Part shown: positions 12,818 through 15,636 of the stretch, piece after piece
Layout: each line of letters starts with the position of its first letter
Position numbering within the stretch: the first letter of the stretch is position 1
The notes under the pieces: generated by a model
Database searches by the model: none
What the model saw: the letters and a program-made list of their open reading frames with translations, nothing else
Told to the model about the DNA's origin: nothing
Program-made: the position numbers and the translations under genes
Origin: Rhodovulum sp.
GTDB taxonomy: Bacteria > Pseudomonadota > Alphaproteobacteria > Rhodobacterales > Rhodobacteraceae
Assembly (NCBI GenBank): GCA_002706605.1
Contig: PALT01000005.1
Span: 1 to 64,000 of the forward strand
Direction: 5' to 3'
DNA length: 64,000 bases

Positions 12818-13726
12818 TTAGTCGCCAAAGCCCGCGATATTGGCCTCTTTGATCCACGCGCTTGAGCATTTGCCGAAATAGGCCATGTCTGCGGGCCAGT
12901 CCTCGGGCGTCAGGGCGCAGGCGGCCAGACGCGCGTCATAGTCCAGATCGGCCAGATAGCCGCCCGCGCCGTCGCCCTTGTCCGGATCGCCCCAGATGAC
13001 GCCGGAAAACCCGTCCCGATAGGCGCATTCAAACGCATGGCCTAAGTCTTCGGGGAAGGCATAACCAAGGATCGCCGCATCGTCATGTGGGGCGGCGTAG
13101 AGGGCGATTTGCCCGTTCTCGGTTCCCTCATTGGCGGGGACGGCGCCGACCTCACGACAGTCATAGCTGCCATAGGGGCTGGCGCCGGTGATCGGCATTT
13201 GCGGTTGGAAATAGGGGGCGCTGTCGCCGCTGGGGCCGGTGCGCAAGCGGTTCATCGACACCCCGCGCAGGTCCAACAGGTTCTGAACCTCGGCCGACAG
13301 TGCAGGGGTCATGCAGGACAGGGTCCGCTCCGGCGCGGTGCCCCTCCCGAACAGGTCCAGCCAGACAGACGCCTCGGCGGTGTCCGTGGACCCGATTGGC
13401 ATCTTCAACGCCAGAACCGCGCGCCCGCCCTCATGCAAAAACGTGTATTCAAACACGTCCCACGGATAGCCGCCCGTGCCCGGTGTCATGCCAAAGGGCG
13501 TCTCGGCGGCCAGTTGCACGATCGGCCCATCCGAAACCTCGGGAGTGACGTAGAGTTCCAGCGCGGGCGCGCCGGTTTCGGGGTGGCTGCTGGCGCAGAG
13601 TTTGATTTCCTCGGCCTCTTCGGTCAGGCACAGAACCTGTGTGGCCAGAATGTCGTCGCAAAATGCCGATGCCACACTGGCCGACCCGATCAGGCCCGCA
13701 GCGGCGGCGATACTAAATAAACGCAT
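12818..13726 (-). CDS. Secreted protein of unknown function, cysteine-rich, SH3-like C-terminus
   Basis: A 302-residue exported protein. MRLFSIAAAAGLIGSASVASA is a signal peptide. The mature N-terminus carries a C-x8-C-x8/9-C pattern (FCDDILATQVLCL...IKLC) resembling those of two neighbouring genes. The second half (ALYAAPHDDAAILG ... CSSAWIKE) resembles a bacterial SH3-like fold. It is the last of four same-strand genes for exported proteins, and a stem-loop separates it from the previous gene. No enzyme motif was recognised. The start at 13726 was chosen because it begins the signal peptide. Function is unknown; ligand binding or envelope attachment are guesses. Confidence 0.75.
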   Translation of the reverse strand: MRLFSIAAAAGLIGSASVASAFCDDILATQVLCLTEEAEEIKLCASSHPETGAPALELYVTPEVSDGPIVQLAAETPFGMTPGTGGYPWDVFEYTFLHEGGRAVLALKMPIGSTDTAEASVWLDLFGRGTAPERTLSCMTPALSAEVQNLLDLRGVSMNRLRTGPSGDSAPYFQPQMPITGASPYGSYDCREVGAVPANEGTENGQIALYAAPHDDAAILGYAFPEDLGHAFECAYRDGFSGVIWGDPDKGDGAGGYLADLDYDARLAACALTPEDWPADMAYFGKCSSAWIKEANIAGFGD

Positions 13727-13743
13727 GTTCAGTTCTCTATGGT

Positions 13744-13764
13744 GGGACCGCAGCGCGCGGTCCC
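13744..13764 (-). terminator. Stem-loop between two secreted-protein genes
   Basis: GGGACCGC and GCGGTCCC form a perfect 8-bp stem with a 5-nt loop, 14 bases after the stop of the 180-residue secreted protein gene on the minus strand. It may partially terminate or punctuate the operon before the next cistron. Confidence 0.5.
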
Positions 13765-13777
13765 GTTTCACGATGGG

Positions 13778-14320
13778 TTAGCCTGCAAAGACCTCACAGT
13801 TTTGATCGGTGACGGCCTCAAGCGGGACCCACCCCATGGCCGTGTCGGTTTCGACAAAAACGTAATCGCCCCAGCCCTCGAACCGGAAAAACACCGTGTC
13901 ACCGGGGGTGATCGTGCCGACGGGATAGCTCATCTGTTGGCCGATGCCGCTTGTCATGGTGACGGGCGCGCCGGTGTAGCCGATGCAGGCGGATTCGAAC
14001 TCGGACAGGGTTGGCAGCAGGTCGATATCCTCAAGCTTGCCAATCAGGGACGAATTCAGGCTGCGCGAACCGGTGTTCACGGCACAGTCATTGCGCGCTT
14101 CGATGTCCTTGTGGGCGTTCACCATGGCCTGGTCCCAGTCGTCCAGAACGGGGCTTTTGGTGGAACATTCGGCGTCAAACACCGATTGGCCCAAGGTCGA
14201 GCCAAAGCAATACCCCGCGCGGTCAAAGGCGAGGTTGCGCAGGTACCACGCGTCTTCGCACAGGGCGCTGGCCGAGGTTGCTATGCAGAGGAAAAGGGAG
14301 GTTGTGAACGCTGTTTTCAT
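13778..14320 (-). CDS. Secreted YARHG/DUF4453-like protein with SH3-like C-terminus
   Basis: A 180-residue exported protein. The signal peptide covers about residues 1-19 (ends SASA). The mature N-terminus, LCEDAWYLRNLAFDRAGYCF..LGQSVFD, matches the YARHG-type module (called DUF4453 in Rhodobacteraceae), a short cysteine-containing extracellular domain. The C-terminal part, GDTVFFRFEGWGDYVFVETDTAMGWVPLE, reads like an SH3b fold closing on GWV. A GGAG site precedes the ATG. It sits between two other secreted-protein genes with related C-terminal folds, which suggests a shared envelope function; the function itself is not known. Confidence 0.75.
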   Translation of the reverse strand: MKTAFTTSLFLCIATSASALCEDAWYLRNLAFDRAGYCFGSTLGQSVFDAECSTKSPVLDDWDQAMVNAHKDIEARNDCAVNTGSRSLNSSLIGKLEDIDLLPTLSEFESACIGYTGAPVTMTSGIGQQMSYPVGTITPGDTVFFRFEGWGDYVFVETDTAMGWVPLEAVTDQNCEVFAG

Positions 14321-14345
14321 TGTCGATCTCCTTATAATTGCGCCG

Positions 14346-15164
14346 TTACTGGATGCGTTTCAGAAACGCGCCATCCACCCATCCTGTGGCGCAGGGGCCG
14401 GTATAGGGGTGGCCAATCTGTTCGGGGCGGATCGTGCAGGTGTCGATCCCGCGCGTCGGAAGGGCGACGGCGATAAACGCCCCCTCGCGGGCAAGCACAT
14501 CGACGTCTTGCATGGGTTGCAACATCCACCACACCGGCGTGTTCGCACGCGGTCGGGCAGAGGCATAGACCGGCAGGCCCTCAGACCCTTTGGGCACATC
14601 GGACACGCGGGCGATGCCGACCGTGTCGATCTGTGGGGTGATGACGTCCTGCGAAAAGAACGCGCCGATCGGGCCGCGATCCACCTGCGCCGACCAGAGC
14701 GGTTCGGGATCGGCATAGACCGTGTCGGCGTCGCACACGGTTTGATCCACCCGTTGCCGCCAATGCGGGGATTGCAGCCACATATCGACCGGCTGCTCCG
14801 CGATCACCTCTTCGGCCAGATCATCCCACGGCAGGCGCAGGTGCAAGGTCACGGGCTCGGCCATATCGGTGTGCCAGAACCCCAGTTCCAGACGCGCCAC
14901 ATCGCCCTCGGACCACTGAAACCACGTGGTATCTGCATCCGCGATCAGGGGGATGTCGTAAAACGGGTCTCCGGTCGCCAGACGGTGGCGGTTCAGGCTG
15001 TAGTGGCCGTCGTTCATGCAGACGGTGATCTGTTCGCGATATTCACGCTCGCCGGTCGCGCATTGGAACAGGATCTCCCCCGTGCAGACGGGGTCGGCCA
15101 TGGCTGTGCCGGTGGCGTCGGCCATCGCGAGTGCGGTGGCCGCTGCGATTGCAAAGCGGGTCAT
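14346..15164 (-). CDS. Secreted protein of unknown function with N-terminal cysteine motif and SH3-like end
   Basis: A 272-residue exported protein. MTRFAIAAATALAMADATGTAMA acts as the signal peptide. The mature N-terminus has CTGEILFQC...ITVCMNDG, the same spacing and chemistry as in the genes on either side. The C-terminal part, GLPVYASARPR ... GWVDGAFLKRIQ, looks SH3-like and ends in the typical GWV segment. It ends 26 bases before the 180-residue gene downstream and starts 11 bases after the stop of the gene upstream, so it is likely cotranscribed. No enzymatic motif is visible. Confidence 0.75.
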   Translation of the reverse strand: MTRFAIAAATALAMADATGTAMADPVCTGEILFQCATGEREYREQITVCMNDGHYSLNRHRLATGDPFYDIPLIADADTTWFQWSEGDVARLELGFWHTDMAEPVTLHLRLPWDDLAEEVIAEQPVDMWLQSPHWRQRVDQTVCDADTVYADPEPLWSAQVDRGPIGAFFSQDVITPQIDTVGIARVSDVPKGSEGLPVYASARPRANTPVWWMLQPMQDVDVLAREGAFIAVALPTRGIDTCTIRPEQIGHPYTGPCATGWVDGAFLKRIQ

Positions 15165-15174
15165 GGTGCGCCTG

Positions 15175-15636
15175 TTACTGAGCGATTTCAATACGTTCGA
15201 CAAGGGTGCTGAGATCGCTGTCGACTGAGCCGCCGTCGCAGTTCAGGGCCGCGATTTGTGCGCCGTTTTCCAGAACAAGAATGCCGCCCTCAACCTCTGA
15301 ATCATTGCTGCGCTCGGCGCCCCACCAGACCTCATAGGCATAGCCGCCACCGGCCTCAAACGTGACGGATTCAGAGATGAAATTGCCAATGCCGTTCCAC
15401 GGGGTTGCCGTCATTTCGGCCACGGGGCGGTTGATTTCCTTTTCGACACCGCCGCCGGTTTTGTAAAAGCCATAGATCGCCTGTGTATCCCCGTCCGCCA
15501 GACAGACCGAAACGGCCTTGGCGCCGCCCTTGAAGGTGCAGGAAAACACCTCGGTCGAGGCCGTGGGGCAAAACCCGCCCGCATGGGCCGCGCCGGTCGC
15601 AAACATCAGGGTCGAGGCAAGAAAAAGGGATTTCAT
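15175..15636 (-). CDS. Small secreted cysteine-motif protein
   Basis: A 153-residue exported protein and the first gene of the four-gene secreted cassette. MKSLFLASTLMFATGAAHA is a clear signal peptide and an AAAGGA site precedes the ATG. The mature N-terminus has FCPTASTEVFSCTFKGGAKAVSVCLADG, the cysteine pattern shared with two downstream products, followed by repeated short beta-like segments (YGFYKT, SVTFEAGGGYAYEVWWG). It lacks the SH3-like end of its neighbours, so it may represent the minimal unit of the family. Function is unknown. Confidence 0.75.
   Translation of the reverse strand: MKSLFLASTLMFATGAAHAGGFCPTASTEVFSCTFKGGAKAVSVCLADGDTQAIYGFYKTGGGVEKEINRPVAEMTATPWNGIGNFISESVTFEAGGGYAYEVWWGAERSNDSEVEGGILVLENGAQIAALNCDGGSVDSDLSTLVERIEIAQ

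Follow-up and report, generated by a model that had tools for sequence, protein, structure and literature searches.

Proteins that combine a YARHG domain with DUF4453 (PF13308 followed by PF14627) have already been named as an architecture (PMC3355149), and, as far as the accessible passages of the two papers go, YARHG is proposed to bind peptidoglycan or a ligand near peptidoglycan (PMC3355149, PMC3848476) or to act as an extracellular ligand sensor (PMC3848476). Gram-negative copies are described as poorly conserved in the motif, and may have another ligand or none at all (PMC3355149, accessible passages). Parts of the locus reported here also resemble the bacterial SH3 domain SH3_3 (PF08239) and, as small exported domains with conserved cysteines, the MliC lysozyme inhibitors (PF09864). 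A third family, TMEM43 (PF07787), is the upstream neighbour in 7 of 12 related cassettes and is absent from the genome studied. No literature linking TMEM43 to such a prokaryotic operon was found, most subscription journals being outside the coverage of the search, and the accessible parts of two papers on roseobacter plasmids (PMC4886583, PMC5513947) mention neither TMEM43 nor DUF4453. In the literature searched, DUF4453 appears in PMC3355149 alone.

Gene organization of the locus

The locus lies in the first 64,000 nucleotides of contig PALT01000005.1 of Rhodovulum sp. (assembly GCA_002706605.1), the whole stretch analysed and hereafter the window. Its four genes are transcribed in the order P1, P2, P3, P4, with intergenic gaps of 10, 25, and 51 bp:

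15175–15636, reverse strand: P1, 153 aa; signal peptide and a single four-cysteine N-module, nothing else
14346–15164, reverse strand: P2, 272 aa; signal peptide, four-cysteine N-module, and SH3_3-like C-terminus with C243 and C258
13778–14320, reverse strand: P3, 180 aa; signal peptide, YARHG (PF13308), and DUF4453 (PF14627)
13727–13777, reverse strand: gap between P3 and P4 with the inverted repeat GGGACCGC...GCGGTCCC, read from the sequence
12818–13726, reverse strand: P4, 302 aa; signal peptide, four-cysteine N-module, and weakly SH3-like C-terminus with C270 and C287
12786–12809, reverse strand: strong RNA hairpin with a 10-bp stem and no T run, directly past the P4 stop

Inspection by eye showed evident signal peptides at the N-termini of all four products and no lipobox. 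The hairpin past P4 (–23.5 kcal/mol, z –5.4, 0 of 200 shuffles of the 61-nt stretch) is the probable end of the unit. A promoter scan found 0 promoters against 1.1 expected, and its 2 terminator hits were below the 3.4 expected. The P3–P4 interval is the place where a further gene, X, sits in plasmid versions of the cassette. From the ORF list, the flanking genes are of other kinds: one neighbour looks like a chemotaxis protein and the other like an amidohydrolase.

The four-cysteine N-module

The earlier note had claimed a mature N-terminal pattern of three cysteines in three of the products. The pattern is real in P1, P2, and P4, where C-x(7–9)-C-x(10–13)-C stands just past the cleavage site and is followed by a fourth cysteine 88–95 residues beyond the third. 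All four positions are invariant in P1 (C23/C33/C45/C133, 15 sequences), P2 (C27/C35/C49/C144, 11 sequences), and P4 (C23/C33/C44/C138, 10 sequences). Near the N-terminus, the pattern C.{6,11}C.{9,14}C is also specific, occurring in 23 of 455 gene calls (133 flagged as secreted by a crude rule), a count that comes from a home-made caller with some starts truncated and some genes missed, and from loci picked for holding these families. Twenty-two of the 23 carriers are members of the P1, P2, P4, or Y families (Y being another cassette gene), and the last is a P1-like gene of genome G039 (HMM E = 3.6e-6) beside a YARHG-DUF4453 gene.

Neither Pfam nor NCBIfam matched the window copies of P1, P2, or P4 at E ≤ 1, and 15 members of the module gave no convincing match to a model of either collection. 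The lone PHROG match among the three proteins was dismissed as meaningless.

Judged by sequence, P1, X, and Y are paralogues. Profile–profile comparison by hhalign gave E = 8e-9 for P1–X and 3e-8 for P1–Y (0 of 20 shuffles as good), X matches P1 at 7e-6 by plain tblastn, and the P1 profile finds X and Y directly in genome G124 (8.4e-5 and 2.3e-7, respectively); both also carry the four cysteines in register. For P2 and P4 a shared N-module is probable: their links to this group are weak (E = 5e-4 to 8e-3), but their four cysteines are in the P1-type register. A pooled P1/X/Y profile matched P2 at E = 0.0019 (24 columns) and P4 at 0.0021 (105 columns), and P2–Y gave 5e-4, each with 0 of 100 shuffles as good; these E-values are pairwise, and the hhalign nulls shuffle columns and hence destroy the cysteine spacing too. 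P2 against P4 directly was weak (E = 0.029, 1 of 20 shuffles as good), and either of them against X was at noise level.

The proposal that the genes are tandem paralogues thus stands for P1 with X and Y, extends to P2 and P4 only weakly, with kinship to P1 below conventional thresholds, and fails for P3. Not all four genes are paralogues, because the N-terminal YARHG of P3 belongs to a different, helical family.

Elsewhere, two loci (L081 and L080, in genomes G374 and G770) carry the module twice in tandem within one ORF, showing that the module can duplicate inside a gene. At L058:228-1508 and on the Tistrella plasmid NC_017959 it stands at the N-terminus of a larger protein; the plasmid match is annotated as a sel1 repeat family protein.

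C-terminal segments and P3

Three SH3-like ends had been proposed, two of them closing on GWV. The GWV motif is present in P2 (261–263) and P3 (163–165), its counterpart in P4 being AWI. SH3_3 matches 3 of 10 P2 orthologues (best E = 0.0015), though not the window copy, and SH3 kinship of the P2 tail is likely; the tail differs from SH3_3 in its extra conserved C243/C258 pair and an insert ahead of GWV. P3 matches SH3_6 at no better than E = 0.032. The claim did not hold as well for P4, of which 0 of 9 members match an SH3 Pfam model and which resembles, by profile comparison, only the tails of P3 and P2, so that its SH3 kinship is tentative. The P4 tail aligned with that of P3 at E = 6e-4 (0 of 100 shuffles as good in the larger null, 1 of 20 in the smaller), with that of P2 at 0.0028 (1 of 100), and with Y at 0.006 (0 of 100); P2 and P3 tails aligned at 0.009 (1 of 20), and either of these two against Y was at noise level. 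An earlier comparison of the same pairs on a smaller sample gave weaker values.

The assignment of a YARHG-type module to one product was confirmed. P3 matches YARHG at E = 2.7e-16 (59.8 bits, cut-off 27) and DUF4453 at E = 3.5e-27 (95.1 bits, cut-off 26.1), in that order and behind a signal peptide seen by eye, and therefore has exactly the YARHG-DUF4453 architecture. The accessible passages of PMC3355149 describe no operon setting of these proteins with P1, P2, P4, or TMEM43. In G039 (L044:355-1337), the P1-like gene and the YARHG-DUF4453 gene share a 4-bp overlap and belong to no full cassette. Single-query searches found neither P2 nor P4 in this genome, and plain tblastn with P1 of Ruegeria TM1040 did not find its P1-like gene. 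This pair, standing apart from P2 and P4, suggests a joint action of N-module and YARHG proteins. Two YARHG-DUF4453 genes stand in tandem in another genome (L038:7280-8475, G011).

Distribution and probable mobility of the cassette

The earlier note had proposed looking for similar cassettes in other Rhodobacteraceae, and these were found. The P1-P2-P4 core, its gene order kept, is present at 12 loci, the window included, two copies being identical. Seven of them are those of the window, of G124 and G134 (two other genera), of three Celeribacter, and of one Rhodobacteraceae MAG, whose contig ends inside P4. Conjugative plasmids, megaplasmids, and chromosomes are all among the carriers. Five plasmids, three of them conjugative, carry the cassette: the 131-kb plasmid and the megaplasmid of Ruegeria TM1040, pP13_b and pP71_b of Phaeobacter piscinae (the identical pair), and p2 of Tritonibacter mobilis. 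Gene order is held at nucleotide identity down to about 65%.

By tblastn with the TM1040 proteins, the 12 cassettes hold P3 in 7 (it is missing from the other 5), the further secreted proteins X and Y in 6 each, TMEM43 in 7, a small membrane protein in 6, a LuxR-type gene in 5, and Z in 4. The TM1040 TMEM43 protein matches its family at E = 1.7e-71, and the LuxR-type gene has an Autoind_bind match at E = 2.4e-9. TMEM43 was not found in the window genome, G124, or the three Celeribacter genomes, so the core can do without a membrane base. Gene Z closes the plasmid version (L064:16971-17753) and has an apparent signal peptide and no Pfam match.

Single P2 and P4 queries matched only their own genome among 121 relatives. 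The P2 profile matched 4 of 394 family genomes; three of these matches are real, and the fourth (G200) covers the SH3-like stretch alone. P1-type genes were found in 12 of the 121 relatives and in 14 of 398 genomes across the phylum, the own genome being counted in both. A P4 query matched 5 of 72,556 plasmid records, and neither P1 nor P4 matched any of 50,697 phage records. Stand-alone P1-like genes lie near housekeeping genes (nrdR, yjbQ, rpoD, dnaG, as identified by inspection), and no common function was seen in their surroundings.

The patchy distribution, the carriage on plasmids, and the two TM1040 copies at 70.6% identity indicate that the operon may well be horizontally mobile. The cassettes of G124 and G134 share 93.8% identity, which would fit a recent transfer between them. 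A tRNA gene lies near the cassette in G124 (tRNA-Ser) and in two Celeribacter (tRNA-Arg). In G124, a transposase-like ORF stands just before P1 at the contig start (L035:1-620, G124:C2), and similarity to the G134 cassette begins only inside P1 (base 620), so G124 has apparently lost TMEM43 and the normal start of P1.

Selection and structure

All 33 comparisons of P1, P2, P3, X, P4, and Y that returned a value gave dN/dS of 0.04–0.30; one further comparison, P3 between the window and TM1040, was saturated and has no value. P1 and P4 were generally lowest (0.04–0.17), and VirB9 and VirB10 gave 0.04 and 0.06. The low ratios point to a constrained function under purifying selection, with no sign of an arms race, for which gene-wide ratios are a weak test. 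AlphaFold2 models of P4 (4 alignment rows, pLDDT 30.0) and P2 (5 rows, pLDDT 44.1) were too low in confidence for a fold. Foldseek with the low-confidence P2 model returned 0 matches at E ≤ 0.001, and searches of solved structures for relatives yielded nothing convincing.

Possible roles

We hold the anatomy of the operon and its proteins as described above with high confidence. The reading that we favour, tentatively, is that the operon moves horizontally and encodes exported, modular envelope proteins that are stabilised by disulfides and dock at the periplasmic wall; taken by itself, the wall-docking role is a possibility to which we lean with somewhat greater reserve. It is favoured by the proposals for YARHG, the bacterial SH3 tails, and the P1-like/YARHG pair of G039. 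P1 to P4 would reside in the periplasm. Docking on or near peptidoglycan may fall to the YARHG part of P3 and to the SH3-like tails in P2, P4, and Y, and the N-modules may bind each other or some partner. Where the cassette is complete, the small membrane protein and TMEM43 would form an inner-membrane base, with TMEM43 as an optional partner. The job would likely be envelope reinforcement or remodelling rather than that of a toxin or immunity set. A more elaborate form is rather unlikely: a membrane-to-wall complex with a TMEM43 base and a four-cysteine/SH3/YARHG array, carried by conjugative plasmids of roseobacters as an accessory under quorum control and altering the envelope of the host, towards phages, predators, or rival plasmids for instance.

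The cassette could instead be a conjugation accessory of roseobacter type IV secretion plasmids, serving for example in entry exclusion or surface modification, that was later stranded on chromosomes. At 3 of the 12 loci (the TM1040 131-kb plasmid, pP13_b, and pP71_b) it sits between relaxase/VirD4-type genes and the virB operon, adjoined by LuxR, and the window genome has two TrbI genes on other contigs. These TrbI/VirB10 genes (G000:C23 and G000:C31) possibly belong to two related conjugative plasmids. However, the identity of the pP13_b and pP71_b cassettes reduces the three cases to two lineages, and neither the TM1040 megaplasmid nor the T. mobilis p2 replicon has a TrbI match. Two Celeribacter genomes and the MAG (G470, G471, G839) likewise carry the cassette without a TrbI match, which contradicts obligate coupling to type IV secretion. 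We consider a conjugation accessory unlikely.

The proteins could also be periplasmic inhibitors or immunity proteins, for example against lysozyme-like enzymes from competitors; the inhibitor role was raised in the earlier note. Small exported disulfide-rich domains in tandem would suit such a role, and there is a weak MliC match within TM1040 P2 (E = 0.0055, 14 bits, cut-off 22). Yet when a profile from 30 MliC loci was compared with the pooled N-module, the probability was 0.3% and 23 of 60 shuffles were as good; against Y it was a marginal 4.9% (1 of 60 shuffles), whereas MliC sub-family controls reached 94.8–99.4%. A relation to MliC is thus not supported, the match being below cut-off and the pooled N-module no better than shuffled columns. 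The low dN/dS shows no diversification, and the anti-phage defence models of PADLOC gave 0 families in 9 proteins. Inhibition or immunity is distinctly unlikely, and the suggestion finds no footing in the MliC comparison.

Very doubtful is a periplasmic sensor or binding set for an extracellular ligand, with the neighbouring LuxR providing quorum control and TMEM43 relaying the signal. Its attractions are the LuxR-type gene adjoining the unit in 5 of 12 loci and the sensor role proposed for YARHG, but the window and Celeribacter versions have neither LuxR nor TMEM43, and no kinase or receptor was recognised in the unit. Chance assembly of unrelated secreted genes alike only in cysteine spacing is highly improbable: the links of P2 and P4 to P1 are below conventional significance, but the synteny conserved across the 12 loci at such low nucleotide identity already contradicts it, and the carriers of the cysteine pattern all fall within or close to the P1/P2/P4/Y families.

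In annotated plasmid records, P1, P2, P4, X, and Y of this conserved and probably mobile gene set are labelled "hypothetical protein". The analysis places TMEM43 and YARHG-DUF4453, both domains of unknown function, in a prokaryotic operon, and it suggests that an exported four-cysteine module beyond the convincing reach of Pfam and NCBIfam models is widespread.
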